A DNA stretch of 64,000 nt from Halochromatium roseum (GTDB lineage: Bacteria > Pseudomonadota > Gammaproteobacteria > Chromatiales > Chromatiaceae), in contig NZ_NHSH01000065.1 in NCBI RefSeq assembly GCF_016653315.1, forward strand, positions 248,001 to 312,000, in the 5' to 3' direction. The notes beneath the pieces were generated by a model, which saw only the letters and a program-made list of their open reading frames with translations, ran no database searches and had not been told where the DNA came from. Both the position numbers and the translations under genes were made by a program. Positions 1 through 28,789 of this stretch are shown one piece after another (the first letter of the stretch is position 1; each line of letters opens with the position of its first letter).

Positions 1-653
1 CGAAACCGGCCAACGCCTTCGCGCGCTACGCACCCAGCGCCGATGGCATTTCCCCCATGCCGTCACCCGGAATTCCAGGCTTCGAATACACCGCTGACGG
101 ACTCGCGCACAACGCGCAGGGCACACCGTCGAGCAGCGCCAGCGATCATCGCGAACAGCTAAGCAAGCTCATGCACAAGCTAACCGCACATGACTACGGC
201 GACGCCTGGGCTCGAATCGACCGCGGTCAGCTCGCTGATGAACCAGCTGACAGCATGATCAGCCTCCTGACCTGGGGCTCGAGCTGGGGCGCGGTCCAGG
301 AGGCAACGACGCGGTTGCGCGAGCAAGGCGCACAGGTGCAGAGCATTGGGCTGCGATTGCTGGCCCCGCTACAGCACGACCAGTTGAGCCGCGCGATCGC
401 CGGCACCCAAGTGCTGGTCGTCGAGATCAACGCCACCGGCCAGCTGTTCCGCTACCTCAACGCCGAGCGGGTGCTGCCGCCCAGTGCCCGCTCATTCGCG
501 AGACCCGGGCCGCTGCCGCTGCGCCCTGCCGAGGTCATCGCTCAGCTGCGGCTGCAACGGCCACAACCCGATGCCGACGAAAACCAAGCGGGCGGTGGCG
601 ATGAGCATGCCGGCGAGTCGCTCCAGGCTGCGGATGTTGGAGGAGGATACTGA
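1..653 (+). CDS. 2-oxoacid:ferredoxin oxidoreductase alpha subunit (KorA-like), 3' part
   Basis: C-terminal part of the alpha subunit of a 2-oxoacid (probably 2-oxoglutarate) ferredoxin oxidoreductase, which decarboxylates a 2-oxoacid to an acyl-CoA and reduces ferredoxin. The frame is open from base 3, so the gene starts outside the window. The visible protein opens with the RYAPSADGISPMPSPG stretch, which resembles the family's RY..T.DGISPR..PG segment, and ends in a Rossmann-like domain with TWGSSWG and VVEINATGQL, as in KorA. Its stop codon overlaps the ATG of the beta subunit (TGATG), so the two are translationally coupled. The fixed order alpha-beta supports the call; the exact oxoacid cannot be read from this part. 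Confidence 0.88.
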   Translation, partial: KPANAFARYAPSADGISPMPSPGIPGFEYTADGLAHNAQGTPSSSASDHREQLSKLMHKLTAHDYGDAWARIDRGQLADEPADSMISLLTWGSSWGAVQEATTRLREQGAQVQSIGLRLLAPLQHDQLSRAIAGTQVLVVEINATGQLFRYLNAERVLPPSARSFARPGPLPLRPAEVIAQLRLQRPQPDADENQAGGGDEHAGESLQAADVGGGY

Positions 654-1537
654 TGGCCCCGGCAATGATCCCCAGTCTGCGCGCGCGCGACTATCTCTCC
701 GACGTCAAGCCGATCTGGTGTCCGGGATGCGGCCATTTCGGCGTGCTCTCGGCGTTGACCAAGGCGCTTGCCTATCTCGAGCGCCCCAAGCATGAGATCG
801 CGGTGATCTCCGGCATCGGCTGCTCATCGCGTGTGCCCGCTTATCTCAACTGCTACGGTTTCCACGGCCTGCATGGGCGCGCACTGCCGTTGGCGACCGG
901 GCTGAAGGCCGCCCGACCCGACCTAACCGTGATCGCCACCGGTGGCGATGGCGATGGCTTCTCGATCGGTGGCAATCATTTCCTACACGCCTGCCGACGC
1001 GATATCGACCTCTGCTACATCGTCATGGACAACGCCGTCTACGGCATGACCAAGGGGCAGGCCTCGCCAACCACCCCTCCAGATTGGACCCAGAGCGCGC
1101 TGACACCCCATGGCACCGGCATCCCAGCCTTTCGACCAGCGGCCATCGCGCTGGCGTCCGGAGCCAGCTTTATTGCGCGCGGCTTCAGCGCTGATCCGCA
1201 CGGGCTGAGCGAACTCATCGCGCGCGCGATCCTTCATCCTGGCTTCGCCTTCGTCCATGTCTTGAGTCCCTGTCGCACCTACCGACCTGATGATCAGTCG
1301 AGCTGGAAGCAGGCCGTGCACCCCTTCGGTGAGCACATCCTGTCCACCGCAGAGACCGCTGTCGACACCCCGCCAGGGGCCAGCACCAGCACCAAGCTCC
1401 ATGTGCAGGACGACGGCCTTGGCCTCGGCGTCCTCCACGAGGTTGCCCGCAGCCAGGCCTCGACCAGCGCGACGGCTGGTGCCAACCCAGATCGCCAGGC
1501 TGCCCTCGATGCAATCGAAGCGGAGTTGGAGGCTTGA
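653..1537 (+). CDS. korB: 2-oxoacid:ferredoxin oxidoreductase beta subunit (KorB-like)
   Basis: Thiamine-diphosphate-binding beta subunit of the 2-oxoacid:ferredoxin oxidoreductase. The N-terminal WCPGCGHFG motif supplies cluster cysteines, GIGCSSR and NCYGFHGLHGRALPLATG follow, and GGDGDGFSIGGNHF is the ThDP/Mg site (GDG...N) of KorB proteins. At 294 residues it has the usual length. The ATG overlaps the alpha subunit stop by one base. In an autotrophic sulfur bacterium such an enzyme could run oxidatively to supply reduced ferredoxin or reductively in CO2 assimilation; direction cannot be deduced here. The reduced ferredoxin could feed the MBS-like complex at 14.9-25.8 kb, which is inference. 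Confidence 0.93.
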   Translation: MAPAMIPSLRARDYLSDVKPIWCPGCGHFGVLSALTKALAYLERPKHEIAVISGIGCSSRVPAYLNCYGFHGLHGRALPLATGLKAARPDLTVIATGGDGDGFSIGGNHFLHACRRDIDLCYIVMDNAVYGMTKGQASPTTPPDWTQSALTPHGTGIPAFRPAAIALASGASFIARGFSADPHGLSELIARAILHPGFAFVHVLSPCRTYRPDDQSSWKQAVHPFGEHILSTAETAVDTPPGASTSTKLHVQDDGLGLGVLHEVARSQASTSATAGANPDRQAALDAIEAELEA

Positions 1538-14906: not shown

Positions 14907-16715
14907 TCAATGGGTCTGGGCAGACGTGCCAGCAAAGGCCTCCATCATGCTCGCGGCGATCCGGTGTCCAGCGGCGACGGCGGTGATCACGTCCGGACCC
15001 TGGACCGCATCCCCCGCCGCCCAGAGCCAGGACTCGGAGGTGCGGCCGTCGGCGTCGATGCGGATGCGGTTGCGCTCCCACTCCAGGGCCTCGGTCAAGG
15101 ACTCGCCGAGCAAGGCGTGGTCGGCGGCCTGGCCGATGGCCTCGACGATCAGGCCCGCGTCGTGGATCTGGATGTCGCTGTCGTCGTAGTTCGGTGCGAA
15201 ACGCCCTTGGTCATCGAACACCGAGACGCAATGAACGGTCTCTAGCCCAGCGACGGCGTCGCGCTCGATCAGGCACCGACGCGGACCGCGACTGGGGAGG
15301 ATGACGACACCCTCCTCGCGCGCCTCGTCGATCTCCTCGCGGTCGGCAAGCATCAGGTCTTCGGCCTCGAGGGCGACCAGGGTGACGCCGACCTGGCCAT
15401 GTTGCTGGCGCTGCATGCGCGCCAGGCTGCGGGCGATGTCCATGGCGACGTTGCCGCCACCGATCACCGCGACCGTCGTGGGCACATCAAAGCGCTCGCC
15501 AAAGGTAATCCGGCGCAGCAGCTCCACGGCGGAGACGACATCCTGATGCTCACTACCGGGGATGCGCGTCGAGCGGCCTTGGTGCAGGCCGATGGCGAGC
15601 AGGACGGTGTCGTGCTGCTCGCGCAGCTGATCGATGCTGACGTCCTTGCCAACCTGGGTGTTGCAACGGATCTCGACGCCCATCGAGCGGATCACGTCGA
15701 CATCCTCGTCGAGCTTGTCGTAAGGCAGCCGGTATTCCGGGATGCCATAGCGCATCATGCCACCCGGGGCAGGCAGTGCCTCAAAGACCGTCACGCCATG
15801 ACCGGCCTTGGCCAGATCGAAGGCGGCGGTGAGCCCGGCGGGTCCGGCGCCAATGATCGCGACCTGATGCCTGCTGGGCTCGCTGACGCGGCCCTCGGCG
15901 GCAATCTGTTTGATGCGGTCGTGCGGGACCTGGTCGATGATGTGACGCTTGAGCCAACGGATGGCGATGGCGTCGCCCTCGTGCCGTGCTGCGCAGCTGG
16001 TCTCGCAGCGATGGGTGCAGACGCGCCCGCAGACATTGGAGAACGGATTGGTCTGATAGAGCAACCGCACGCCCTGCTCGTAGTCGCCGTCGCGGATGGT
16101 AGCGATGTACTCGGGCACCGCCATGTGCGTTGGGCAGGTCGCGACACAGAGGCCGCAGGAGACGCAGCGGTCGGCCTCGAGCTTGGCCTGCTCGATGTCG
16201 TAGCCGGCGACGATCTCGACGAAGGAATCGGCGCGCGCCTCTGGCTCGAGCTCACCCATGGGCACCCGTTCGGTCCCGGTCAGCCGATGGCCCTCGGGAC
16301 GCCGGTAGCCAAGCTCGGCGCTGTCCCAGTGCTTCAGATCGACACCAGGGATGAAGCAGAAGGCATCTGGATCATGGTCCACCCACTTGTACTCGTTCGA
16401 CATGCTCAGCGAGCTGGTCATGCAGACGTCGACACAGAGGGCGCACCAGCAGCAGCGTCCGTAGTCGATGCGCGGACGCAGACCGGAGTCGCCTTGCTTG
16501 GTCGCGATCTCGGCGACCGCGACCATGTCGATCGCCGCGTTCTGGCAGATCGCCTCGCAGGTGCCGCAGCCGATGCACTTGTCGACGTCGTTTTGGTGGA
16601 AACCACGATAGCGCGGCGCACCCGGTCGATCGTTGAGCGGATCAGGGATGGTGACCGGATCGCGGAAGAGGTTCTTCCAGGCGCTGAAGGGAGAAAGGAC
16701 GTCGCTCAGGCTCAT
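14907..16715 (-). CDS. NuoI-like ferredoxin fused to GltD/NfnB-like NAD(P)H flavoprotein (MBS-like complex, electron-input subunit)
   Basis: A 602-residue electron-transfer protein. Residues 47-57 and 88-98 hold two C-x2-C-x2-C-x3-C motifs, as in NuoI/MbhN. Then comes a GltD-type N-terminal iron-sulfur domain (C184, C187, C190, C194 and C229, C233, C237, C241). FAD- and NAD(P)-binding domains follow: GAGPAG at 289-294, PGGMMRYGIPEYRLP, VIGGGNVAMDIA, and WAAGDAVQGPDVITA near the C-terminus. In archaeal MBS the corresponding last gene is a simple two-cluster ferredoxin subunit, so the flavoprotein is an addition that would let the complex exchange electrons with NAD(P)H. It is the last gene of the operon, separated from nuoD by an inserted element. 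Confidence 0.87.
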   Translation of the reverse strand: MSLSDVLSPFSAWKNLFRDPVTIPDPLNDRPGAPRYRGFHQNDVDKCIGCGTCEAICQNAAIDMVAVAEIATKQGDSGLRPRIDYGRCCWCALCVDVCMTSSLSMSNEYKWVDHDPDAFCFIPGVDLKHWDSAELGYRRPEGHRLTGTERVPMGELEPEARADSFVEIVAGYDIEQAKLEADRCVSCGLCVATCPTHMAVPEYIATIRDGDYEQGVRLLYQTNPFSNVCGRVCTHRCETSCAARHEGDAIAIRWLKRHIIDQVPHDRIKQIAAEGRVSEPSRHQVAIIGAGPAGLTAAFDLAKAGHGVTVFEALPAPGGMMRYGIPEYRLPYDKLDEDVDVIRSMGVEIRCNTQVGKDVSIDQLREQHDTVLLAIGLHQGRSTRIPGSEHQDVVSAVELLRRITFGERFDVPTTVAVIGGGNVAMDIARSLARMQRQQHGQVGVTLVALEAEDLMLADREEIDEAREEGVVILPSRGPRRCLIERDAVAGLETVHCVSVFDDQGRFAPNYDDSDIQIHDAGLIVEAIGQAADHALLGESLTEALEWERNRIRIDADGRTSESWLWAAGDAVQGPDVITAVAAGHRIAASMMEAFAGTSAQTH

Positions 16716-16748
16716 CCGACTATCTCGATTATCATAGGGTTTGTTTGA

Positions 16749-16936
16749 ACCGCGGATGACGCAGATGAACGCAGATTGCTTATCAACGTCTCGGCTGGTC
16801 GCCGGAAAGAAACAACGATAGAAGCCCAGGAAATCATGAAGCCGCAGATCCTCGATTCGGAACGAACGGTTTTCGTTGGCTCATGACCGATGCGTCTCTT
16901 GGAATTCATCGGCGAAAATCCGCGTCATCCGCGGTT
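16749..16936. mobile_element. 188-bp MITE-like element with 15-bp terminal inverted repeats
   Basis: AACCGCGGATGACGC at 16749-16763 is repeated as an exact complement at 16922-16936. The interior contains further GACGCAGATGAACGCAGATT-type words known from dispersed intergenic repeats and no open frame of note. It occupies nearly all of the gap between the nuoD-like gene and the last gene of the operon. No target-site duplication is apparent. Confidence 0.7.
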
Positions 16937-16969
16937 AAACAGTGATTCACGAGCGCCATGTTGAGCAAT

Positions 16970-18145
16970 TTACCGCTCGATCTCAGGTGGATAGGTGTGC
17001 AGCGAGACCATCAGCGCGGCGACATCCGAGATGTTGCAATTGACGATCAAGCGCTCGAGCAAGGCCATCGCGTGCGTATAGGACGGCCCGCGCACATTGA
17101 CCCGGCGCGGATAGCCGCTGCCGTCGGTGACCAGGTAATAGCCATACTCGCCCCGCGAGCACTCGCCACGGATGTAGGTCTCGCCAAAGGGGATCTTCCA
17201 ATGCAAGACGTTCGGCAGCGGCGCCATCACCGCCCCTGAGCGCGGCATCCGGGCCAGGATCTGGCGGATCAGGTCGACGGACATCAGCAGATCGCGGCGG
17301 CGCACATCGGCACGCGTGAAGACATCCGAGTCCTGCCCGACCACCGGCTCGAAATCGAGCTCGGGATAGACCAGGTAGGGCTGATCCCGGCGCACGTCCT
17401 TGGCAATACCGGCGGCACGGGCGGTCGGGCCAGTGACGCCGTATTGATCGACGATCGCGGGATCGATATAGCCAAGCCCGACCGTGCGCTTCTTGAACAC
17501 CGCGTTGTTGAACATGACGTCCTTGACGTCGGCCAGCGTGGACTCGATCTCGCGCAGGGTCTCCTCCATGCGCTGGTCGAAGCCATCGGGCAGCCCGTCG
17601 CGCACCCCGCCGGGCATGATGAACATGTGATAGATGCGCGCCCCACTCAGCTCCTCGAAGCGGTCGAGCATCAGGTCGCGCACATAGGTGGTCCACTGGC
17701 CGATGACGCCTTGGCCCAGCGCACCGGCCTGGCCGCCGAGGTACATCAGATAGCTGTTGATGCGCCCCATCTCGAGGATCAGGGTCCGAATCCAATGCGC
17801 CCGTTCTGGGACCTCAAGCCCGGCAAGCTCCTCGACCGCGGCGGCGTAGCAGTACTCGTTGAAGTCGGGCTCGGGCACGCAGATCCGGCAGACGATCGGG
17901 AAGCACTGGATGAAGGTGCGCCGCTCCATCAGCTTCTCGAAGCCGCGGTGCAGATAGCCGACGTGGGTCTTGCCCTCGACCACCTCGTCGCCGCAGACGG
18001 TCAGCTCGACCGACATGTTGCCGGTGATGCCGGGATGCTGCGGCCCCTGCCAGAGCTTTAGATACTTGCCCGAGCTGAGATCGATGTCCAGGCTGCCGTC
18101 TGGCTTCCGGGATGGGTATTGACTGCGGTCCGGTTGATACAGCAT
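16970..18145 (-). CDS. NuoD-like (49 kDa/hydrogenase large subunit family) subunit without NiFe ligands
   Basis: A 391-residue homologue of NuoD/MbhL, the subunit that forms the quinone or NiFe cavity. Typical segments are GPQHPGITGNMSVELTV, VGYLHRGFEKLMERRT, MGRINSYLMYLGGQAGALG and PRSGAVMAPLPNVLHWKIP. Of the hydrogenase N-terminal CxxC pair only CRIC followed by VPEPDF remains (C86, C89), with the second pair member replaced, and the C-terminus (ISDVAALMVSLHTYPPEIER) has no CxxC. It therefore cannot hold a normal NiFe centre. Two bases separate it from nuoC. This matches the MBS/Ehr type rather than a hydrogenase. Confidence 0.88.
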   Translation of the reverse strand: MLYQPDRSQYPSRKPDGSLDIDLSSGKYLKLWQGPQHPGITGNMSVELTVCGDEVVEGKTHVGYLHRGFEKLMERRTFIQCFPIVCRICVPEPDFNEYCYAAAVEELAGLEVPERAHWIRTLILEMGRINSYLMYLGGQAGALGQGVIGQWTTYVRDLMLDRFEELSGARIYHMFIMPGGVRDGLPDGFDQRMEETLREIESTLADVKDVMFNNAVFKKRTVGLGYIDPAIVDQYGVTGPTARAAGIAKDVRRDQPYLVYPELDFEPVVGQDSDVFTRADVRRRDLLMSVDLIRQILARMPRSGAVMAPLPNVLHWKIPFGETYIRGECSRGEYGYYLVTDGSGYPRRVNVRGPSYTHAMALLERLIVNCNISDVAALMVSLHTYPPEIER

Positions 18146-18146
18146 C

Positions 18147-18677
18147 TCAGGTCTTGTCCGGATAGAGCTGTTGCTTCATGAACTCGGCGGGATCGCTCGA
18201 CGCGCGTCCCGGGCGTGGCGCGAAGACCTCATCGGAAAACTTCAGGGTGTCGAAATCGCGCCGGTACGGCGGGGTTCTGATCCAGCCTTCGAGGATGAAG
18301 TCTTCGTCGACACGCGGGCTGCCCGGGAAGTCGATACCGAACATCTCCCGCAGCTCACGCTGGTAGGTGGCGGCGGTCGGCCAAAGGTCATGGATGCTCT
18401 CCATCGACGCCGGGTCCCGCGCCAGCATCACCCGCACCCCCAGGTCGCGACAAGCCCGCCGGTTGTTCATCAGATAGGTGAGCTGGAAGTGGCCCTCCTC
18501 CAGCCAGTCGACCGCGGTCAGCAGCACCAGATGGGTGAAGCCCTCCTGGTCCCGCAGATGCAGCAACAGCGATCGGAGCTGTTCCCTGGGGACGGTGACG
18601 AACGCCAGGTCTGGCCGCTGTTCGGTCAGCTCCCCCAGCGGGAAGGCCATTGTCAGTCTGTCGTAGAGATCACGCAT
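18147..18677 (-). CDS. NuoC-like (30 kDa) subunit of the MBS-like complex
   Basis: A 176-residue NuoC/MbhK-type subunit of the peripheral arm. The family signature is seen as TYQRELREMFGIDFPGSPR and EGWIRTPPYRRDFDT. The first 60 residues contain LRDQEGFTHLVLLTAVDWLE, also typical. It follows nuoB by nine bases and precedes nuoD by one, in the order B-C-D shared by complex I and group 4 hydrogenases. Confidence 0.9.
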   Translation of the reverse strand: MRDLYDRLTMAFPLGELTEQRPDLAFVTVPREQLRSLLLHLRDQEGFTHLVLLTAVDWLEEGHFQLTYLMNNRRACRDLGVRVMLARDPASMESIHDLWPTAATYQRELREMFGIDFPGSPRVDEDFILEGWIRTPPYRRDFDTLKFSDEVFAPRPGRASSDPAEFMKQQLYPDKT

Positions 18678-18686
18678 CGCGGCCGT

Positions 18687-19355
18687 TCACCAGTTGTAGT
18701 CCGGCATATCCCAATCGTGGATCACCCGTTTCTGGTTGGCCTTGTACCAGTCGAACTGCTCGGCGTACTGGTTGGCACCTTCGGCCTTGCCCGCCCGGAT
18801 GATCCGCTTGAGTTCCTCGAAGCCGGCCAATAAGGCCTCCGGACGCGGCATGCAGCCGGCGATGTAGACGTCCACCGGCAGGTATTGATCCAGCCGGGTG
18901 ATGGTGTTGTAGGAGTCGAAGTACATGCCGCCGTTGATGGTGCAGGAGCCCAATCCGACGACATATTTCGGATTCGGCATCTGCTCATAGGAGCGGATGA
19001 CCCGCTTCAGCGTCTTCACCGACAGATAGCCCGAGATCACGAACAGGTTCGATTGCCTAGGCGTCGGTCGCCATTGAATGCCATAGCGATAGGCATCGAA
19101 GCGCGGCGTCATCAGCGGCCGCATCTCGATCGCCCCGCAGCCGGTGCCAAAACCGAGAATCCAGAGCGATTCGGCCCGAGCCCAGTTGAACAGGCCCTCG
19201 ACGATCTTGCTGTAGGCCGCCGGCATGACCGTGGGGGCGGACTGGCAGTAATAGTCCCGCAGCGGATCGATCTCGATCGTTTGGCCATCGGGCGTCTCGA
19301 CGACGCGCTTCTTCAGCTCATCGCGGACGGGCGGTGTTGGAAAATCGTCTTTCAT
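18687..19355 (-). CDS. NuoB-like subunit with altered cluster motif
   Basis: A 222-residue NuoB/MbhJ homologue carrying the proximal (N2-like) cluster. I start it at ATG 19355, five bases after the nuoH stop. The usual tandem Cys before AIEM reads TGCGAIEM (C73, G74), so one of the two adjacent cysteines of complex I is missing; the distal ligands GLGSCTINGG (C138) and YIAGCMPRPEALL (C168) are kept. It lacks the hydrogenase GCxGC arrangement as well. The cluster may be ligated differently or be modified. The rest, such as PTPRQSNLFVISGYLSVKT, is typical. Confidence 0.88.
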   Translation of the reverse strand: MKDDFPTPPVRDELKKRVVETPDGQTIEIDPLRDYYCQSAPTVMPAAYSKIVEGLFNWARAESLWILGFGTGCGAIEMRPLMTPRFDAYRYGIQWRPTPRQSNLFVISGYLSVKTLKRVIRSYEQMPNPKYVVGLGSCTINGGMYFDSYNTITRLDQYLPVDVYIAGCMPRPEALLAGFEELKRIIRAGKAEGANQYAEQFDWYKANQKRVIHDWDMPDYNW

Positions 19356-19359
19356 GGGC

Positions 19360-20265
19360 TTACACCAATAAGATCGCAGCGACGCCAAGCGGGACCGCCC
19401 AGATCAAGAACCAACGAATCGACTGCTCGACCCGGAACCGCGGGAAGACGACGCCGACGATGACCGAGACCAGATAGATCAGAAACACCTTGAGAAAGAA
19501 CACCGGCCAGCTCGCCGCGCCGCCGAAGAACAGGTTCATGTAGATCACGATCTTGGCGATCGGGAAGATCGCGCGATTGGTTTGCATCAGCGCCAGGTAG
19601 GACGAGTGGTACTCGGTCGGCGGCCCAATCGGGATCTCCTGCGGCGCCAGCACCACATCGAACGGCGGGCGCATCATCGAGCCGAGGAACGAGAGCATCG
19701 CCGCCGCCACCGCGAGCGGATTGGTGAACAGGGTCCAGTGCAGGATGCCGCCCTGCTGTGCGGCGACGATCTCGGTCACCGAGAGGGTCTGGTATTGCAC
19801 GGCGACCGCGTAGACGGCCAACGCGAATGGCAGCTCGGCCGCGGTCACCTGGGACAACCCGCGGGTGACGCCGATCGCCGAATGCGGATGACCGCTCTCG
19901 CCGGCACCCAACGCCATGCCTAAGGAGCCGAAGAAGACGAAATAGAGCGCCAGGATCAGGTCGCCGGCGAAGGACATGTTCGAGAACATCTCGCTGCCAT
20001 AGATGGTCGGCACGAACATCAGTAGACCAACGCCGCCCGTGAGCCGGAACACCGGGCCGAGGTAGAACATCACGCCATGAGTGATCGAGCTGCGCAGCCC
20101 GTAGTTCTTGATCAGGTCGACATAGTTCTGCCAGACCGGGATGCCGTGCCGGCGCCCGACGCGGGCCGCGATCTTGGCCATCACCGCGGTCAGCAGGAAG
20201 CCATAGTTGGCGACGATGAACAGGGTCAGCAGCGCATAGGGGATCTTGATCCATTCAAACGACAT
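19360..20265 (-). CDS. NuoH-like membrane subunit
   Basis: A 301-residue, roughly eight-helix membrane protein of the NuoH/MbhM family that links the redox arm to the ion-pumping arm. Typical segments: KIAARVGRRHGIPVWQNYVDLIKNYGLRSSITHG, FSGDLILALYFVFFGSLGMALGAGESGHPHSAIG, and the loop GPPTEYHSSYLALMQTNRAIFPIAK. The gene follows the double antiporter by two bases. Homologues in Mbh and MBS have the same position between MbhH and MbhJ. Confidence 0.9.
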   Translation of the reverse strand: MSFEWIKIPYALLTLFIVANYGFLLTAVMAKIAARVGRRHGIPVWQNYVDLIKNYGLRSSITHGVMFYLGPVFRLTGGVGLLMFVPTIYGSEMFSNMSFAGDLILALYFVFFGSLGMALGAGESGHPHSAIGVTRGLSQVTAAELPFALAVYAVAVQYQTLSVTEIVAAQQGGILHWTLFTNPLAVAAAMLSFLGSMMRPPFDVVLAPQEIPIGPPTEYHSSYLALMQTNRAIFPIAKIVIYMNLFFGGAASWPVFFLKVFLIYLVSVIVGVVFPRFRVEQSIRWFLIWAVPLGVAAILLV

Positions 20266-20267
20266 GC

Positions 20268-23200
20268 TTAGAGCCCCGTGCGCAGGAGGTAGACGACCAC
20301 GACGAAGGCCAGTAGTTGGATCGCATAGGTCTGGCCATTACCGGTGTAGAGCCGGCGCAGCAGATCGGCACTGGCGTGCAAGACATCGACAACCGCTGCC
20401 CAGAACCGCTCAACCAATGGCTCGGTCATGAAACCGAGCGCCTTGCGGTAGGGCGCGAAGAAGTTCCAGGCGAAGTGCGTGGTCTCCGGTCGGTACGGCC
20501 GCTCGCCAGCGAAGACGATATTGAACTGCTTGACCTTTTGTGCCTTGCGATTGACGAAGAGCAGCCAGGCGAACAGGCTCGCGAAGATCACGCCGACCAC
20601 GATCATGATCGAGATCGGGCTCCAGTAGCCGAAGGCGCTGGTGATGGTCAGCCCCTCCCAACCCAGGGCGCCCTCGGGATGGAACTGACTGATGTAGGCA
20701 TCGACCCGGCGCAGCGCGAGCCCCGGCACCAGCGCAAAAACCATCAGGAAGGCGACGAAGATCATCTGCGGTAGCACCAGCCAGAACGGCGCCTCCTTCA
20801 CGCGCCGGTGCTCGTCTTTGAGCTGGCCCAGGAAGATCGTGTGGATCAGTCGGAACAGATAGAGGAAGGCGATCGGCCCGGAAATAAAGATCAGAATCAT
20901 CGGCAGCCGGTAGTCGGCGGTCAGGATGGCGTTGTAGAAGATCCAGCGCCCGCCGAAGCCGGACAAGGGCGGCACCCCGGACATGGCGATGATGCCGATC
21001 AGCACCGCGATGAAGGACAGCGGCATCAGCGTAATCAGCCCCCCCATCCGATACATGTCGCGGGTACCAGTGCGCTTGGCGATGCCACCGACCGACAAGA
21101 ACAGCATCGATTTGTAGATGAAGTGGTTGATGACGAACATCAGCGCCATCAGCCAGCCGAGATGGTTCATCATCGCCAGGCCGAACAAGGCATAGCCCAT
21201 CTGGCCGATCGACGAATAGGCCAGCAGGCGCTTGGCGTCCTCTTGGAAGGCCGCCATCAGGTTGCCGATCAGCGCCGAGAGCGCGCCGATCCAGAGCAGG
21301 ATGTGGGTCAGCTCGATCCCATGAAGCTGCTGGCCGCCCATCGCCATCAACAGCACGAAGAGCCCGAACAGGCCGGCCTTGAGCAGGATGCCCGAGACCA
21401 TCGGCGAGACATCGGTCTCGGCCTCGGCATGGGCGCCCGGCAGCCAGATATGCAGGCCGACGGCGGCGGTCTTGGTCATGAAGCCGATCGCCAGGAGCAG
21501 GAAGACCCAGGGGGCGATCGGCGCGGCAACCTGCGCCAGACCGGCCAGCGAGAACAGCGGATCACCGCCGGCCGCGAGCGCGAAGCCGGCCAGGATCAGG
21601 AAGGCGCCGCCGAGCGAAAACACCATGTACGAGAGCGCATGCGGCTCCGAGCGCTGACCGCGCAGGATCAGGAAGTAAGAGCCGATGGTCAGCGACTCCC
21701 AGGCCGCGAAGAAGCTGAAGGCGTCCTCGGCGAGGATCAGCATCGCCAGGCCCGCGTACATCAGCATCGCCGAGGGGTAGAAACCGATGCGCCGCCCCTG
21801 GGTCTGATAGCTCGCCAGCAAGACCAAGGCGCCGCCGAGCAGCATCACCGCGGCAAAGATCAGCTGGAGCGGATCATAGCTGGGCAGCGTCAGCAGGAAC
21901 CAAGCGACCATGCCGACGATGGCGACACTGTTCTTGACCCGCACCGACAGCGGCTCAAGGGCCAGAAAGACGAGCGCGAACAGCAGCGGCACGGCCAGCA
22001 GCAGATTGCCATTGGGCGAGAGCGCACCCCAGATGTAGCCCAGGCCCCAGCCCGCGGCCACCGCGCTCAAGATCACCGCGCGCTTGAAGGACGAGGCCGC
22101 CACCGGTTCCAGCGAGCGCTCACGCTTAAGCGCCTGCCCGAACCATCGGAACAGATAGCCAGCCTCGAGCAAGGCGCCGAACAGGATCAACCCGAGCAGC
22201 GCCAACCGACCCTCGCCTGCCAGCGCGATCACCAGCTCCCACTTGGCGTAGAAGCCCGGGAACGGCGGCAGACCGACCAGCAAGGCGATAAAGCTGGCAA
22301 AGGCGAAGATCAGGATCGGATGGCCCTGCAGCGCGCTCCAAGCCTTGAGTTCACGCCCTTCGATCAGGCCAGACAGCCAATAGAGCCCGGCCTTGGCCAC
22401 CGCATGCGCCAGCAGGATACCGCCGGCGATGAACAGGTAGCGATCGCCCAGTAGGTCACGCTGGCCAAGGACCGCCAGCACCAGCCCCACCTGCGCCACT
22501 GAGGAGTAGCCCAGCAGGCGCCGGTCGTTGGTCTGCGCCAAGGCGAACAGATTGGCTCCGACGAAGCCGAAGATACCGATACCAGTCGCGACCGGCAGCC
22601 AGGTCGGGCCGCCGATCAGCAGCAGCTTATCGGCGGCGAACAGCGCGGCCGATGCCGAGGCCGCTGAGAGCATCGCCGAGAAGGCCGGATGCGCCGACTC
22701 GTAGATGTCCAGCGCCCAGCCATTGGCCGGGAACGGCTTCAGATCGAGCACGATGGCGATGAACATCAGGAAGAAGGCCAGCGCGCCGCCCTGGAGCACC
22801 CGCGCCGACAGCTCGGCCATGCCGTCGATATTGAGGGTACCGGTGGCGTGGTAGGCGAAGATGATGCCGACCAGCAGCAGCACGGTGATGACCTGGGAGG
22901 CGACCAGGTACTTGAAACCCGCCGCCAGGGCACGCTGATCGCGCGAGAGCAGCACCAGCCCACCGGTGGCGATGGCGACCAGCTCGAAGAACACGAACAG
23001 GTTGAACAGATCGCGGGTCAGGACGATGCCGCAGGCCGCCATGGTGAAGACCAGCAAGGTCGCCAGCGCCCGGCGCCCCTGCTTGAACAGGGTATCGCGC
23101 AGGTAGACCGCCGAGAGCAGGCCGGTCAGGTTGATCAACAGGGTCAGGACGGCCTCGGCCAGCCCCATGCGCAGATTGATCGCATAGGGCGGCAGGGTAC

Positions 23201-23393
23201 CGGCGGTCAGGATCTCCACCGCGCGGCCATCGCCAGCCGCCATCACCCAGACCCAGCCGGCGGAGATCAGGCTCATCAGGGCGAGCGCCGCCAGGCTGAC
23301 GCCATAGGCACCAGCGCGCCAGTCATCGCGCAGCAGACCGAGTAGAAACGCGGTCCCCAGCCCGACCGCGAGGATATAGATGGCGCTTACCAT
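20268..23393 (-). CDS. fused double antiporter-like subunit (MbsH-MbsH'/MrpD-like)
   Basis: A 1041-residue membrane protein containing two complete proton/sodium-antiporter modules. The first (about residues 60-430) has LFNLFVFFELVAIATGG with the conserved TM5 glutamate and GFKYLVASQV. The second (about 530-900) has FSFFAAWESLTIGSYFL, LHIWLPGAHAEAETDVSPMVSG with histidine, and LLKAGLFGLF. A long C-terminal extension with two more helices follows. Archaeal MBS encodes these as two adjacent genes, mbsH and mbsH'; here they are one polypeptide. The gene overlaps the mrpC-like gene by seven bases. There is no frameshift. Confidence 0.9.
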   Translation of the reverse strand: MVSAIYILAVGLGTAFLLGLLRDDWRAGAYGVSLAALALMSLISAGWVWVMAAGDGRAVEILTAGTLPPYAINLRMGLAEAVLTLLINLTGLLSAVYLRDTLFKQGRRALATLLVFTMAACGIVLTRDLFNLFVFFELVAIATGGLVLLSRDQRALAAGFKYLVASQVITVLLLVGIIFAYHATGTLNIDGMAELSARVLQGGALAFFLMFIAIVLDLKPFPANGWALDIYESAHPAFSAMLSAASASAALFAADKLLLIGGPTWLPVATGIGIFGFVGANLFALAQTNDRRLLGYSSVAQVGLVLAVLGQRDLLGDRYLFIAGGILLAHAVAKAGLYWLSGLIEGRELKAWSALQGHPILIFAFASFIALLVGLPPFPGFYAKWELVIALAGEGRLALLGLILFGALLEAGYLFRWFGQALKRERSLEPVAASSFKRAVILSAVAAGWGLGYIWGALSPNGNLLLAVPLLFALVFLALEPLSVRVKNSVAIVGMVAWFLLTLPSYDPLQLIFAAVMLLGGALVLLASYQTQGRRIGFYPSAMLMYAGLAMLILAEDAFSFFAAWESLTIGSYFLILRGQRSEPHALSYMVFSLGGAFLILAGFALAAGGDPLFSLAGLAQVAAPIAPWVFLLLAIGFMTKTAAVGLHIWLPGAHAEAETDVSPMVSGILLKAGLFGLFVLLMAMGGQQLHGIELTHILLWIGALSALIGNLMAAFQEDAKRLLAYSSIGQMGYALFGLAMMNHLGWLMALMFVINHFIYKSMLFLSVGGIAKRTGTRDMYRMGGLITLMPLSFIAVLIGIIAMSGVPPLSGFGGRWIFYNAILTADYRLPMILIFISGPIAFLYLFRLIHTIFLGQLKDEHRRVKEAPFWLVLPQMIFVAFLMVFALVPGLALRRVDAYISQFHPEGALGWEGLTITSAFGYWSPISIMIVVGVIFASLFAWLLFVNRKAQKVKQFNIVFAGERPYRPETTHFAWNFFAPYRKALGFMTEPLVERFWAAVVDVLHASADLLRRLYTGNGQTYAIQLLAFVVVVYLLRTGL

Positions 23394-23743
23394 TTCAGGT
23401 CCTTGAACGCGGAGATGTCGAGGGTGCGCTTGCTCTCATAGAGCTTGTACGCATAGGCGAGCATCAGGGCCGTTACGCCGACCCCGATCACGATCGCGGT
23501 CAGCACCAGGGCCTGCGGCACCGGATCGATGATGCGCTCAGCCGCCTCGGCCACCGGCACCGACGCATCAAGGATCGGCGCCGTGCGCCCGTGTAGGTAG
23601 CCGACGGCGACCATCACCAGGTTGACGCCGGTATTGGCGACCGTGAAGGCGACAATCATGCGCAGGATGTTGCGATTGGTCAGCGCCCCATAGAGCCCGA
23701 TCAGGATCAACACAAAGCCGGTAGCCATCGCGATATAGGCCAT
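23387..23743 (-). CDS. MrpC/NuoK-like membrane subunit
   Basis: A 118-residue, three-helix protein of the MnhC/MrpC/NuoK/MbhG group: GFVLILIGLYGALTNRNILRMIVAFTVANTGVNL and a last helix with DPVPQALVLTAIVIGVGVTALMLAYAYKLYE, the standard MnhC ending. It overlaps the genes on both sides, consistent with tight translational coupling within the operon. Confidence 0.9.
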   Translation of the reverse strand: MAYIAMATGFVLILIGLYGALTNRNILRMIVAFTVANTGVNLVMVAVGYLHGRTAPILDASVPVAEAAERIIDPVPQALVLTAIVIGVGVTALMLAYAYKLYESKRTLDISAFKDLKW

Positions 23744-24444
23744 CAGAGATCCTCCGTCTCGGACAGATGCGCCAGCATCGAGGAGAACTCGGCGCCGACC
23801 TTGAGGCCGATGAAGGAGTAGATGATCGGTATCGCCCCCGCCGAGAAGAGTTCGCCGAGGTTGCCGATTGGCAGGATGCGGTTGTCGAGGAAGCCGCCGG
23901 CGAGAACGATGCCGAGCACACCAATGCCGACGAAGACCAGACCCGCGGTGGACTCGATGGCGGTGATCAGCCGATGACTGATGCGCCGCAGTGGATCGGT
24001 CAACAGTAGCAACAGGATCGCCGAGGCGAGGATGGCACCGCCCTGGAAGCCGCCACCGGGGGTCAGATGGCCATTGACGAAGACATGGGCACCGAGCAGC
24101 AGGATCAGCGGCACCAACAGCCGGGTGCCGGTGCCGAGCAGCTCGCCGGCCGGTGGCAACTCACGCCCGGAGCCGCCGCCCTCGCGACGGCCGTGAGACA
24201 GCACCAAGCCAACGATGGCGGCGGTGAGGAACAGCACCGTCACCTCGCCAAGCGTATCGAGCCCGCGAAAGGTGACGATGATGGCGGTGACGATGTTGGC
24301 CGCGCCGATGTCTTGGGCCGTGTGCTCGGCGTAATAGCGGGCACTGAGATTCAGCGTCTCGTCGGGGCTATAGCTGACCACGAGACCAGCAAAGACGCCG
24401 GCGAGACCAAGCAACAGGAGGGTCACGAAGAGGCGCCTAATCAT
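23743..24444 (-). CDS. MbhE-MnhB-like membrane subunit
   Basis: A 233-residue protein joining two modules. Residues 1-85 match MbhE or the C-terminal domain of MrpA (IGAANIVTAIIVTFRGLDTLGEVTVLF). Residues about 105-225 match MnhB/MbhF (VNGHLTPGGGFQGGAILASAI and FSAGAIPIIYSFIGLKVGAEF). In Pyrococcus these are sometimes separate genes. It overlaps the DUF4040 gene by eight bases and shares a base with mrpC. Confidence 0.88.
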   Translation of the reverse strand: MIRRLFVTLLLLGLAGVFAGLVVSYSPDETLNLSARYYAEHTAQDIGAANIVTAIIVTFRGLDTLGEVTVLFLTAAIVGLVLSHGRREGGGSGRELPPAGELLGTGTRLLVPLILLLGAHVFVNGHLTPGGGFQGGAILASAILLLLLTDPLRRISHRLITAIESTAGLVFVGIGVLGIVLAGGFLDNRILPIGNLGELFSAGAIPIIYSFIGLKVGAEFSSMLAHLSETEDL

Positions 24445-24691
24445 GCTCGCCTCCGCGTACCCGCCCGAGGACGAAGAAGAACAGGAAGGTGGTCAGACCG
24501 CTGCCGATCGCCGCCTCGGTCATGGCCACATCCGGCGCCGCCAGCAGCAAGAACTGCACCGAGGCGAGCAGACTGACCAGACCCGCGGCAAGGATTGAGA
24601 TCGCCAGGCTTTGGCCTCCGCGTATCGCCAGGATCGCCGCCGCGACGATGGTGAGGCTCAGTAACAGACTCATCGCGATGAGCAGAATCAT
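24437..24691 (-). CDS. DUF4040/MbhD-like membrane subunit
   Basis: An 84-residue, three-helix protein. The sequence LSILAAGLVSLLAS-like core and FLLLAAPDVAMTEAAIGSGLTTFLFFF correspond to the MbhD or MrpA C-terminal DUF4040 domain, including the conserved APDVAMTEAAIG motif. It overlaps mrpG by four bases. Confidence 0.88.
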   Translation of the reverse strand: MILLIAMSLLLSLTIVAAAILAIRGGQSLAISILAAGLVSLLASVQFLLLAAPDVAMTEAAIGSGLTTFLFFFVLGRVRGGEHD

Positions 24692-25026
24692 GGCTTTTCC
24701 CCCAGATCTTGCTCGAGCCGGTCGATCACCGTCTGCGGCGCCTGCTTGACCCCGATCCGGTGTGCCGCGCGCGCCAGCACCTGCGACGACAGCGGATTGG
24801 TGAACAGCAGGAACAGGCCGATCAACAGCAGCTTCAGCGCCCAGTCCGGGCGCAGGCAGGCGATCCCGGCCAGGGTTAGCAAGGTGCCCAGGGTGGTGGC
24901 CTTGGTGCCGGCCTGGATGCGGTTATAGGCATCGGGCATGCGCACCAATCCGATCCCACCGGAGAGCAGGAAGGCGGCCCCGCCAACCAGCAGGATGGCG
25001 CCGAGCAGATACAGCAGCGAGAACAT
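24688..25026 (-). CDS. MrpG/MnhG-like antiporter subunit
   Basis: A 112-residue protein of the MnhG/MbhC family with GGAAFLLSGGIGLVRMPDAYNRIQAGTKATTLGTLL, the standard RMPD.Y.R.hA..K..tLG signature, and a second helix pair ending LFLLFTNPLSSQVLARAAHR. It shares one base with mrpF and four with the DUF4040 gene. Confidence 0.92.
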   Translation of the reverse strand: MFSLLYLLGAILLVGGAAFLLSGGIGLVRMPDAYNRIQAGTKATTLGTLLTLAGIACLRPDWALKLLLIGLFLLFTNPLSSQVLARAAHRIGVKQAPQTVIDRLEQDLGEKP

Positions 25027-25286
25027 CAGAAGCCCCTTTCGATATAGCGGGCGACGACGATCACCCCGAGAAACGACAGCAAGGCATAGACCAGGGCCAC
25101 GTCCAGATAGATGCCGCGGCCCTCGGCCAGCGCCGCGAGCGCGATCCCGGTGATGCTGACGATGGTCAGGCTATCGAAGGCGATGATGCGATCGACCGCC
25201 GTCGGCCCGGCCATGAAGCGCCAGAGCGCGAGCAGAAAGGCGACCCCAACGATGGTCGCGGCCAGATAGATCAGCGAATCAACCAT
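25026..25286 (-). CDS. MrpF/MnhF-like antiporter subunit
   Basis: An 86-residue, three-helix MnhF/MbhB protein: MAGPTAVDRIIAFDSLTI is the family's GP...DRv.a.D.. motif, and YLDVALVYALLSFLGVIVVARYIERG closes it. I start it at ATG 25286, which overlaps the mrpE 3' end by eight bases. Confidence 0.92.
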   Translation of the reverse strand: MVDSLIYLAATIVGVAFLLALWRFMAGPTAVDRIIAFDSLTIVSITGIALAALAEGRGIYLDVALVYALLSFLGVIVVARYIERGF

Positions 25287-25797
25287 AGATGACCTCGAGA
25301 TAGCGCTCGAAACCGGCGACGATCTCGGCGGTGGCGCCCTCGACGTCGGTCGAGCCAACGCTGACCCAGTGCACATACAGCCACTCGCCCTCCATCTCGA
25401 CGGTGAGGGTGCCTGGCGTCAGCGAGATCGAGTTGGCCAGCATCAGCCGCCCCATGCGACTCTTCAGCCGGGTGCGGACCTTCACGATACCGGGTTTGAT
25501 CGGTAACGATGGGGACAGGACGATGGCGGCGAGCCTGAGGTTGGACTTGACCAGTTCCTTGAAAAACAGGCCGTAGTAGCGAACCCCGGCAACGAACGCC
25601 GCCGGGGTGGCGCGAAATTCAGTGAAGAACGAGAGGCCGCTGGGGAACAGCAGCGCGATCGCCAGGGAGACGATGACCCCGACGATAAGCGCGTCGGCCG
25701 TCACCCGCCCCATGAGCATGAACCAGAAAAGCAGCAGGGTCGCGAACATCACGACGATGCGCCGTGTTCGCGTTAGGGTCTCGCTGTTCGCCGCCAT
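25279..25797 (-). CDS. MrpE/MnhE-like antiporter subunit, first gene of the operon
   Basis: A 172-residue MnhE/MbhA protein: two N-terminal helices (IVVMFATLLLFWFMLMGRV and ALIVGVIVSLAIALLF) and a cytoplasmic domain with ELVKSNLRLAAIVLSP, MGRLMLANSISLTPGTLTVEMEGEWLYVHWV. The ATG at 25797 has GAGG six bases ahead; an in-frame start 66 bases further upstream lacks homology. All twelve genes downstream run the same way with overlaps or gaps of a few bases, except before the last. Confidence 0.9.
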   Translation of the reverse strand: MAANSETLTRTRRIVVMFATLLLFWFMLMGRVTADALIVGVIVSLAIALLFPSGLSFFTEFRATPAAFVAGVRYYGLFFKELVKSNLRLAAIVLSPSLPIKPGIVKVRTRLKSRMGRLMLANSISLTPGTLTVEMEGEWLYVHWVSVGSTDVEGATAEIVAGFERYLEVIYG

Positions 25798-26095: not shown

Positions 26096-26620
26096 TCAGA
26101 CGCCGCCGCTGTGGACCGTCTCGTAGTAGAGCTTTTCTAGTTCTTCCTTGTGCTTGGCCTCTTCGTTGGCGAGATACTCGAACAACTCTTTGAAGGGACC
26201 TGCTGGCGAACTATCCGCGAGTGAGCGGTAGTGCGTCATCGCCAGATGCTCGCGGCTCATGGCGTACTGCAGCACCGCTTGATCATCGGGCCTCTCGCCG
26301 AGTTCGGGCGTCATCACTGCTTCGGCAAACTGACCGTCCGTCGCCGGACGCTCCACCTCAGCCTTGATCTGGTCTTGGATGTCATCGCGCGCCGCCAGCG
26401 CAGTAAACAGCTCGTAGTGTCCCTGTTCCTCTTGCGCCAATTCCTCTGCAAGCCAGCGAAAGTTCTTGCTGATCTTCGGGATCAGGTCGGTATAGAAGTT
26501 GCGCGCGCTCTCCTCGAAAGAGGTCGCAACCCTGAGCACATCCTCCAAGGTGGTCATGGAACGGATGCGCTCGTAGCTGGACTGCTGGCCCTCCAGCGGG
26601 CCGGTGGATTCTGTGCTCAT
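26096..26620 (-). CDS. ferritin-like (rubrerythrin-type) diiron protein
   Basis: A 174-residue four-helix protein. Diiron ligands are visible as EESARNFY (helix 1), AQEEQGHYELF (helix 2), SREHLAMTHY (helix 3) and NEEAKHKEELEKLY (helix 4), the rubrerythrin ExxH pattern. There is no rubredoxin domain. The start at ATG 26620 (MSTESTGPLEG) is preferred to one 57 bases upstream. It probably reduces peroxide or stores iron. It stands alone, about 300 bases beyond the start of the MBS-like operon; the interval (25798-26095) holds nothing recognisable. Confidence 0.82.
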   Translation of the reverse strand: MSTESTGPLEGQQSSYERIRSMTTLEDVLRVATSFEESARNFYTDLIPKISKNFRWLAEELAQEEQGHYELFTALAARDDIQDQIKAEVERPATDGQFAEAVMTPELGERPDDQAVLQYAMSREHLAMTHYRSLADSSPAGPFKELFEYLANEEAKHKEELEKLYYETVHSGGV

Positions 26621-27283: not shown

Positions 27284-28789
27284 ATGTCGAGAATCCGCTC
27301 AGGCCCGCGCATGGGCCTACTCAGCCCGCTGTTACTCGCGATCGTCGGCCTCTTGGTCGCCACCAACGCCAATGCCGTGCGTCCCGCCGGACAGCCCGGC
27401 GTTGACTGGGGCGACCCCAAGGGGCAGGCCTGTGTCGACTGCCACATGGGCGAGAACCCCGGCCTCTACTGGGAGTGGAACCACAGCCAGCACGGGCAGA
27501 ACGGCGTCACCTGCCTCGACTGTCACCAAGCCGAGGAAGGCGATGTCGATGCCTGGCGCCATGAAGACACCTACGTCTCCATCGTCGTCACCCCCAAGGA
27601 CTGCTCCAAGTGTCATCAGAAGGAATTCGAGGAGATGGACGGTTCGCATCACGCCAAGGCCGGACAGATCCTCGGCTCGCTCGACAACCTGCTCGGCGAG
27701 GTGGTGGGCGGCCCGGCGGCGGTCAATGCCGGCTGCAAGCAATGCCATGGCGGCGAACTGGAGTTCATTACCAACGGCCGGGACAAGGGTCGCCCGCTGG
27801 CCGGCAGCTGGCCCAACACCGGCATCGGCCGCATCAATCCCGATGGCAGCCTCGGCGCCTGCACCGCCTGCCATGGCCGGCACCGCTTCAGCAAGGCCCA
27901 GGCCCGCACGCCGGACACCTGCGGCAAATGCCATGTCGGCCCCGACCATCCGCAGATCGAGGTCTACAACGAGTCCAAGCACGGGATCATCTACCGCGCC
28001 AAGGTCGACGAGATGAACCTGGAGTCGGACAAGTGGGTCGCCGGCATCGACTACAGCGCCGCCCCGACCTGCGCCACCTGCCACATGAGCGCGGCGCCAA
28101 ATGAGGCCTCGACGCATAACGTCGGCGAGCGCATCTCCTGGACCCTGCGGCCGCCGATCTCGACCAAGATCAACCTGGTCAAGCTCGAGAATGGGCAGGA
28201 GTTCGACGTCCCTGAAGGCCAGCCGATCCCGGCGGTCGGCGATGCCGCGAAGGACTCAACGGTGGTCGAGGTGCTGACCTGGAAGGACCGACGCGGCAAG
28301 ATGGAAGACGTTTGCGTCGCCTGTCACGAGCGCAGCGTGATCGACGGCCACTATGAGCAGTTCGACAACGTCGTCGACCTCTACAACGAAAAGTTCGCCA
28401 AGCCGATCGCCGCGGCCATGGTCGATCTTAAGGAGAACGGCTACATCACCCCGGCGCCATTCGACGAAAAGATCGAGTGGACCTGGTGGGAGATCTGGCA
28501 TCACGAGGGCCGTCGCGCCCGTCACGGCGCCTCGATGAGTGGCCCGGACTATACCTGGTGGCACGGCATGTACGAGGTCGCCCAGCACGCCTACTTCAAG
28601 TGGATTCCGGAGCTGAAGGAGGTGGTGATGAAGAAGGACGGTAACGATGAATATGCCGTCGCGTTGCTGGAAGAGCACTTCAAGCCGATCGACGGCCACG
28701 ACTGGTACTTCAACGGCATGAACAAGGAACAGCTCGAGACCGTGCGCAAGGGCTTTGAGGCGCGTTACGGCAAGGGCTCGCTGAAGTAA
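27284..28789 (+). CDS. octaheme hydroxylamine-oxidoreductase-like cytochrome c
   Basis: A 501-residue periplasmic multiheme cytochrome with a signal peptide (cut near residue 31, NANA-V). Eight CxxCH motifs begin at C50, C77, C107, C151, C193, C213, C263 and C344, the number and spacing of the HAO family. Family segments include NAGCKQCHGGE, CTACHGRHRFS, CGKCHVGPDHPQIEVY and PTCATCHMS. After heme 8 comes ARHGASMSGPDYTWWHGMYE; Y423 lies where true HAO has the tyrosine cross-linked to the catalytic heme, but an alignment is needed. HAO oxidises hydroxylamine, while relatives reduce nitrite or NO. A GGAG site precedes the ATG. No membrane-anchored quinol-dehydrogenase partner is adjacent. Confidence 0.9.
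   Translation: MSRIRSGPRMGLLSPLLLAIVGLLVATNANAVRPAGQPGVDWGDPKGQACVDCHMGENPGLYWEWNHSQHGQNGVTCLDCHQAEEGDVDAWRHEDTYVSIVVTPKDCSKCHQKEFEEMDGSHHAKAGQILGSLDNLLGEVVGGPAAVNAGCKQCHGGELEFITNGRDKGRPLAGSWPNTGIGRINPDGSLGACTACHGRHRFSKAQARTPDTCGKCHVGPDHPQIEVYNESKHGIIYRAKVDEMNLESDKWVAGIDYSAAPTCATCHMSAAPNEASTHNVGERISWTLRPPISTKINLVKLENGQEFDVPEGQPIPAVGDAAKDSTVVEVLTWKDRRGKMEDVCVACHERSVIDGHYEQFDNVVDLYNEKFAKPIAAAMVDLKENGYITPAPFDEKIEWTWWEIWHHEGRRARHGASMSGPDYTWWHGMYEVAQHAYFKWIPELKEVVMKKDGNDEYAVALLEEHFKPIDGHDWYFNGMNKEQLETVRKGFEARYGKGSLK

Follow-up and report, generated by a model that had tools for sequence, protein, structure and literature searches.

A 64,000-nucleotide stretch of the 5.17-Mb Halochromatium roseum genome, referred to here as the window (positions 248001 to 312000 of contig NZ_NHSH01000065.1, our C65), carries a twelve-gene operon whose products are identified by comparison with known proteins as a complex of the MBS/Mbx type, neither a complex I nor a hydrogenase. 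The last gene of the operon is a fusion that joins a NuoI-like electron-input subunit to a GltD/NfnL-type flavoprotein. We propose that the complex may be an ion-translocating NADH:sulfane-sulfur oxidoreductase that could work in either direction, in essence an MBS-type enzyme with a rebuilt electron-input end, and we consider the chance that this function is correct to be about even. The genes, the family, the site residues, and the loss of an NADP motif are read from the sequence, and from these we infer the NADH partner, the polysulfide substrate, the ion (Na+ or H+), the direction, and the physiology.

The operon occupies positions 14907 to 25797 of the minus strand. Open reading frames (ORFs) and Pfam/NCBIfam matches confirm the twelve same-strand genes, and their order, proposed in an initial annotation of this DNA. 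That annotation also described overlaps or tiny gaps between the genes, which holds for 10 of the 11 junctions (overlaps of 1–8 bp or gaps of 1–9 bp, using start codons that we picked for mrpF and nuoB) but not for the one from nuoD to the last gene, where the gap is 254 bp. Its description of the last gene as NuoI-like fits the N-terminal domain, whereas the whole gene encodes a 602-amino-acid fusion with the GltD/NfnL-type module. The features, in operon order, are as follows.

25279..25797, minus strand: MrpE/MbsA (NCBIfam)
25026..25286, minus strand: MrpF/MbsB (NCBIfam)
24688..25026, minus strand: MrpG/MbsC, with a proline equivalent to MbsC P83 (sequence comparison)
24437..24691, minus strand: MbhD (DUF4040)/MbsD (PF13244)
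23743..24444, minus strand: MbhE + MnhB/MbsE (PF20501, PF04039)
23387..23743, minus strand: MrpC/NuoK/MbsG (PF00420)
20268..23393, minus strand: double antiporter of 1041 amino acids, MbsH + MbsH' type, fused (two Proton_antipo_M stretches)
19360..20265, minus strand: NuoH/MbsM membrane anchor (6u8y_M 141 bits, next best 52)
18687..19355, minus strand: NuoB/MbsJ, with three-cysteine proximal cluster (match to 6u8y_J); ORF open to 19388 from TTG
19137..19139, minus strand: NuoB cluster ligand Cys, equivalent to MbsJ C28 (alignment)
18942..18944, minus strand: NuoB cluster ligand Cys, equivalent to MbsJ C93 (alignment)
18852..18854, minus strand: NuoB cluster ligand Cys, equivalent to MbsJ C123 (alignment)
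18147..18677, minus strand: NuoC/MbsK (PF00329)
16970..18145, minus strand: NuoD/MbsL (sequence comparison, tree)
14907..16715, minus strand: fused electron-input subunit, NuoI/MbsN-like + GltD/NfnL-type, 602 amino acids (Pfam/NCBIfam, alignment, AlphaFold)
15366..15374, minus strand: codons for A448-L449-E450, in place of the NADP-binding YRR of NfnB (alignment to NfnI)

According to excerpts from the literature on MBS (PMC7684303), polysulfide is reduced at a proximal cluster held by three Cys ligands (MbsJ C28, C93, and C123; C25 is no ligand), and loss of its open iron, through ferricyanide conversion to [3Fe-4S], eliminates ~98% of the activity. The same source states that C25, C85, and C385 are dispensable, that the quinone residues H38/Y87 are absent, and that two of the four NiFe cysteines are gone. 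NuoB of the window keeps C28, C93, and C123, and has Gly both at the C25 position and at that of the second Cys of complex I. In NuoD, the equivalents of the quinone residues His38 and Tyr87 are T and V, and Cys is found at only the first of the four NiFe Cys positions.

These features were surveyed in 94 NuoB and 90 NuoD sequences, which include the window and exclude six duplicate contigs. All 94 NuoB sequences have Cys at C28, C93, and C123 and Gly at the position of the complex I second Cys, although 80 of the surveyed loci were found through the peptide patterns [GC]TGCGAIE / YEQM[QGP][NSG]PK, so that C28 and the Gly following it are partly built in. Residues C93 and C123 and the NuoD positions lie outside this bias, and the 19 NuoB sequences of loci found through the fused gene (L035–L053) show the same cluster residues. 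The C25 position is G in 87 sequences, C in 6, and A in 1. The H38 position of NuoD is T in 83 sequences and E in 7 but never H, and Y87 is replaced by V in 90 of 90. Of the four NiFe positions, the first is C in 75, A in 14, and S in 1; the second is E in 83 and D in 7; the third is Y in 62 and C in 23; and the fourth is E in 85 (the last two are each missing in 5). Because the three-Cys cluster, the absent quinone His/Tyr, and the incomplete NiFe set match those of MBS, the NuoB/NuoD site is by its residues of the sulfane-reductase type, neither quinone- nor H2-reactive.

Comparison with solved chains bears out the MBS/Mbx architecture suggested by the initial annotation, since 5 of 5 compared subunits are closest to MBS of Pyrococcus furiosus (formerly Mbx, PDB 6u8y). 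NuoD scores 319 bits with MBS, 211 with Thermus complex I, and 152 with MBH. NuoB reaches 221 bits with 6u8y_J, 136 at most with complex I chains, and 95 with MBH, and the scores for NuoH are those listed above. The double antiporter, which combines two antiporter-like pump domains (H and H' types) in one gene, matches 6u8y_X at 197 bits (MBH 144), with its residues 454–1033 covering positions 23–612 of 618. The Mrp distal module genes are also present, and MrpG scores 75 bits with MBS and 54 with its next best match, an Mrp antiporter.

A NuoD tree agrees with these comparisons; its 41 sequences are 35 from bacterial Mbx (the window among them), MbsL, two from complex I, and three from hydrogenases. 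Bacterial Mbx and MbsL are grouped with support of 99/99 and complex I lies outside, so that the window NuoD falls with P. furiosus MbsL and not within complex I. A constrained tree in which complex I joins subtypes 1 and 3 (defined below) is rejected by the approximately unbiased test (p = 0.015), although long branches call for caution. On whether MbsL lies inside or beside the bacterial Mbx, support is 89/52; monophyly of the bacterial sequences is not rejected (p = 0.345), and the placement of MbsL shifts in a tree without the hydrogenases. A NiFe site, for which NuoD was also inspected, is not found, as its ligand set is incomplete. No match to a NiFe large subunit was found on the contig that carries the operon, in a search that did not include maturation genes, and the NiFe hydrogenases of this genome are on other contigs.

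The fused subunit is NuoI/MbsN-like over residues 1 to ~120, with two four-Cys cluster motifs (Fer4_7, 46–100), and a GltD/NfnL-type flavoprotein over residues ~150 to 600 (Fer4_20, 162–263; Pyr_redox_2, 284–578; Pfam). Domain matches and alignment place two further [4Fe-4S] clusters, FAD, and an NAD(P) site in the latter half, and the sixteen cluster cysteines are invariant across 22 aligned fusion proteins. The best NCBIfam model is PRK13984, at 866 bits and under the 946-bit cut-off of that model. An AlphaFold model of the subunit has a mean predicted local distance difference test score of 77.5, low in the NuoI part, and the P. furiosus NfnI large subunit (5jca_L) is its best match among solved folds.

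The nicotinamide type can be predicted from a short motif. Excerpts from work on NfnB and DsrL (PMC7596348) report that Y310-R311-R312 of NfnB hold the 2'-phosphate of NADP, and that DsrL enzymes with YRR have NADP(H)-only kinetics whereas NAD(H) is used or strongly preferred by those that lack the motif. The window protein has A448-L449-E450 at this site. In a survey of 84 non-duplicate sequences including the window, 6 have no letters at the site; the remaining 78 read xLE or xME in 74 cases and YRR in 4 (L052, L053, L108, and L117). Because YRR is replaced by xLE/xME, NAD(H) and not NADP(H) is the predicted partner of the window enzyme and of most relatives, and the NADP(H) option of the initial annotation was not upheld. 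Membership among the Nfn-type bifurcating transhydrogenases was considered and rejected: the NfnL domain is present, but YRR is absent and the operon has no NfnS-like gene. As a separate observation, one host-family genome (G144) carries two different Mbx operons (L041 and L053), one with an NAD-type and one with an NADP-type (YRR) input module.

The complex resembles P. furiosus MBS in its subunit set, module order, three-Cys proximal cluster, lack of quinone His/Tyr, incomplete NiFe site, and Mrp-type distal module, in which the equivalent of MbsC P83 is present. MBS itself is characterized by polysulfide reduction that depends on ferredoxin and exports Na+. The complex of the window differs in that MbsN is a stand-alone NuoI-like protein of 208 amino acids, whereas the equivalent here is joined in one protein to an NAD(H) module of the GltD/NfnL type. 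We treat the missing stand-alone MbsN as a mark of the bacterial variant and not as a defect of the catalytic core. Likewise, H and H' are separate in MBS but share one gene here, the equivalents of MbsJ C25 and MbsL C385 are Gly and Tyr in the window, three of the four NiFe Cys are gone instead of two, and a rubrerythrin-family neighbor is added.

The bacterial systems were compared through excerpted descriptions only. The Mbx operons of Thermotoga maritima (13 subunits) and of Caldanaerobacter/Thermoanaerobacter are likewise of the bacterial Mbx type (PMC9431562, PMC4596419), and MbxL of Caldanaerobacter is described as lacking the CxxC Ni motifs (PMC4596419). The PRK13984 cut-off is passed by 1 of 14 control genomes, which we take to be T. 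maritima, so that a fusion of this kind is probably present there too. The 'Mrp-Mbx' of the Riftia symbiont Endoriftia has been tied to S0 reduction by analogy, in a description whose excerpts give no NADH module, site residues, or subunit anatomy (PMC11636981). The Nfn, Stn, GltD, and DsrL flavoproteins resemble the C-terminal ~450 residues in fold and motifs, with an NAD type like that of DsrL-1 in the excerpted source (PMC7596348). However, they function outside complex-I-like membrane complexes, whereas here the domain forms the input end of such a complex.

The operon is widely distributed. A pattern scan returned at least 590 matches, of which 562 were confirmed and the best 80 loci were analyzed. 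By record titles, the scan loci span Gamma-, Beta-, and Alphaproteobacteria, Bacteroidota, Chlorobiota, Spirochaetota, and Marinimicrobia; carriers include Thiothrix, Sedimenticola, Thiosymbion, Gallionellaceae, Rhodobacterales, and Magnetospirillum. Other named loci are those of Rhodobacter aestuarii DSM 19945, Celeribacter litoreus, Magnetovibrio blakemorei, Thiothrix caldifontis, and Prolixibacter bellariivorans. Among the named scan loci, those nearest to the window come from Lamprobacter modestohalophilus, with a NuoB that is 100% identical, and from a Halochromatium metagenome-assembled genome (92%); we therefore place the host among the purple sulfur bacteria of the Chromatiaceae. All twelve genes are in order on one strand in 51 of the best 80 loci, and another 28 are partial yet in order. 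The sole out-of-order locus (L125), which is cut by a contig start, has an mrpE-like match after the last gene. Given that gene order is kept in relatives, the arrangement is not due to chance. In all 69 loci where the sequence runs on for at least 300 bp past NuoD, a homolog of the fusion comes after it, with a length of at least 580 amino acids in 59; nine of the ten shorter ones end at a contig edge, and in the other (L088) the reading frame closes 421 bp short of the contig end.

Within the host family, the full-length fused protein (at least 683 bits) is found at 50 places in 49 of 146 genomes, including that of the window. Four more genomes have fragments above 400 bits, and the next score is 300. 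Among 20 of these places retrieved for subtype assignment, 11 belong to subtype 1 (window-like), 7 to subtype 2, and 2 to subtype 3. Subtype 2 (NuoD 46–49%) keeps C385 in 7 of 7 members and C25 in all 6 for which NuoB was found, and subtype 3 (NuoD 65–66%) has YRR in its input module. Across the 369 genomes of the host class, NuoB reaches at least 319 bits in 17, which belong to 15 families, a patchy spread with a clean gap to the next score of 153 bits; we read the NuoB proteins at and under 153 bits as belonging to complex I.

The peripheral-arm genes lie apart from the membrane-arm genes in four host-family members. A nuoB/C/D-fusion block with no membrane genes recognized alongside is found at L038 (identical to L085), L046, L052, and L054. 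In genomes G055 and G056, NuoH and MbhE homologs are on another contig (MbhE of G056 is below the cut-off), and in G059 NuoH is ~7 kb from the peripheral-arm genes. NuoH was not found in G017, an 84% complete genome with MbhE-like matches. A search for plasmid-borne copies gave no match at E≤1e-100.

In the proposed reaction, NADH would be oxidized (or NAD+ reduced) at the FAD of the GltD/NfnL-like half, and electrons would pass through the four [4Fe-4S] clusters of the fused subunit to the proximal cluster of NuoB. This cluster is predicted to have an open iron because only three Cys ligands are available. Sulfane sulfur, as polysulfide or a persulfide carrier, would be reduced to sulfide in a chamber formed by NuoB, NuoD, and NuoH, and this redox step would power ion movement via the double antiporter and the Mrp-like module. 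In the dark, NADH could be disposed of onto stored sulfur with energy conserved. Run in reverse on an ion gradient, the enzyme would let sulfide reduce NAD+.

The initial annotation had instead proposed coupling between ferredoxin and NAD(P)H. The nicotinamide partner survives in the form of the GltD/NfnL module, but a ferredoxin:NAD(P)+ reaction does not agree with the MBS-type site residues. We prefer the sulfane-sulfur reaction because the site residues are those of MBS and the NADP motif is lost. Excerpted reports state that T. maritima mbxA is up 4.36-fold with S0 (PMC9431562), and that stored sulfur in Chromatium okenii is proposed as an electron sink for glycogen and reduced to H2S (PMC6374484). 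The latter proposal fits an NADH:sulfane-sulfur reaction in a sulfur-storing phototroph.

Several points weigh against this function. For members with the fused subunit it is deduced from sequence, and the NuoI half may hold a ferredoxin site. The NuoD loop at the quinone-His position reads GPQHPGITG, versus GPQHMA-TE in MbsL. No sulfur enzyme was recognized among 12 recurrent neighbor clusters (judged by eye, two of them profile-scanned), nor was a ferredoxin enzyme; apart from the rubrerythrin-family, dihydroorotate dehydrogenase-like, CBS-domain, and regulator genes described below, those recognized are general genes. Since dsrA is over the cut-off in 121 of the 146 host-family genomes, co-occurrence with sulfur oxidation is uninformative. 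Many carriers, including Celeribacter, Rhodobacter aestuarii, Prolixibacter, and Magnetospirillum, are not known to be sulfur reducers. Finally, the step from NADH to sulfane sulfur spans ~60 mV, which yields little energy per ion.

An alternative is an ion-coupled ferredoxin:NAD(P)+ oxidoreductase, in which ferredoxin at the NuoI half and NAD(H) at the GltD half are coupled by ion flow. The fusion of a nicotinamide module to a NuoI-like domain suits this function. Excerpted sources add that NuoI-like MbsN takes electrons from ferredoxin in MBS (PMC7684303) and that, before the MBS structure, Mbx was named a ferredoxin:NADP oxidoreductase (PMC6349859, PMC4596419). However, both partners would then meet on one peripheral subunit and the conserved open-iron cluster and chamber would be left without a job. 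Loss of YRR argues against NADP, and the genome already has Rnf-type pumps (two rnfC genes over the cut-off). Moreover, the link to KorAB at the window start made in the initial annotation was not recovered: no korA or korB homolog is present at E≤1e-15 in 102 related loci (L035–L053 and L055–L137, six contigs twice), of which only L135–L137, extending 18–20 kb past the fused gene, reach the distance of KorAB in the window, while the other 99 stop sooner. Homologs of clpB and cbs are also absent from these loci at that threshold. We therefore regard a ferredoxin:NAD(P)+ reaction as unlikely, though it deserves some weight.

The same architecture might instead serve another acceptor at the open-iron cluster, such as a disulfide, a coenzyme A persulfide, or another small oxidized compound, with a rubrerythrin-family accessory. 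The wide occurrence of the operon, which extends to bacteria in which we know of no sulfur respiration, and the rubrerythrin-family gene that adjoins the fused gene are in line with such a role. Its probability appears low, as the cluster-ligand and quinone positions and the second and fourth NiFe positions match those of MBS. It is also conceivable that an NfnL-like flavin bifurcates electrons from NADH to ferredoxin and to the MBS-type cluster or sulfane sulfur, with ion pumping on one arm. The fold matches of the fused subunit include bifurcating NfnI, NfnABC, and Stn, and the NfnI large subunit aligns across the entire GltD half, but ordinary GltD shares this fold and no NfnS/NfnB-type partner is among the operon genes. 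The E of the NfnI LERF motif is an invariant K256 here, although Stn and NfnA also have K; on balance, bifurcation seems very improbable. An Ech/Mbh-type hydrogenase or an ordinary complex I, toward which only automatic annotation points, is rejected and hardly credible, given the incomplete four-Cys NiFe ligand set on the one hand and, on the other, the NuoD tree, the lack of an adjacent-Cys motif in NuoB and of quinone His/Tyr, the lack of NuoEFG among the twelve genes, and a separate complex I NuoD ~68 kb away on the same contig.

In a related observation, Allochromatium vinosum Alvin_0328–0338 bears the KEGG label 'Ech hydrogenase' in an excerpted source (PMC10892978). Seen by its label alone, this may be a mislabeled Mbx-like cluster.

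Three neighboring features of the window were also recorded.

26096..26620, minus strand: rubrerythrin-family gene (PF02915), on the operon strand and 298 bp upstream of it; ORF open to 26677
57..1537, plus strand: 2-oxoacid:ferredoxin oxidoreductase alpha (C-terminal part only, at the window start) and beta subunits
27284..28789, plus strand: 501-amino-acid protein with CxxCH heme-binding motifs, probably a multiheme cytochrome c (weakly similar to hydrazine dehydrogenase, NF052343 66 bits, far under cut-off)

The rubrerythrin-family gene was surveyed in 100 loci (L035–L134, six contigs twice), of which 9 are too short and 11 lack the fused gene. Among the 80 with enough sequence, 47 have such a gene on the same strand, starting within 600 bp after the fused gene, and 33 do not; five of the latter (L041, L044, L047, L066, and L078) have one nearby, outside the distance rule. 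The gene is on the 5' side of the operon in the window and in Lamprobacter (L039/L055), whereas many proteobacterial relatives have it directly 3' of the fused gene; it was not found at the Halochromatium locus (L042/L056). In 12 Bacteroidota/Chlorobiota loci (L100–L127), the fused gene is followed downstream by a gene like that for dihydroorotate dehydrogenase (DHOD); the one member scanned matches PRK07565. This GltD-DHOD pairing is reminiscent of PreT-PreA. A CBS-domain gene is the other frequent next gene in loci of these phyla, and an upstream regulator, judged Crp/Fnr-like by eye, is present in 16 loci.

Bacterial Mbx operons are already known from T. maritima, Caldanaerobacter, Thermoanaerobacter, and Endoriftia, and no first sighting is claimed. 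A literature search, mostly without subscription papers, turned up no account of the NuoI-GltD fusion, of its NAD motif, or of a bacterial three-Cys site. What is new is the combination of an NADH-type input module with the MBS site, conserved over proteobacterial classes and, by record titles, four other phyla. MBS is familiar chiefly from archaea, as an enzyme on the way to complex I. We tentatively suggest, at somewhat less than even probability, that the operon represents a widespread and overlooked bacterial complex, a relative of complex I that independently acquired a GltD/NfnL NADH module in place of NuoEFG and couples NADH and sulfane sulfur to ions in either direction. This would be a second, unrelated way of plugging NADH into a complex-I-like pump and a case for convergent evolution of the NADH-input module. 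The residues make the predictions specific: NADH and not NADPH, an open-iron cluster, and no quinone. If the proposal is true, the complex would supply the enzyme so far missing for reducing stored sulfur in the dark with conservation of energy or, alternatively, for reducing NAD+ with sulfide at the expense of an ion gradient, and sulfur-storing bacteria would have a concrete candidate for the disposal of electrons onto their stored sulfur in the dark.

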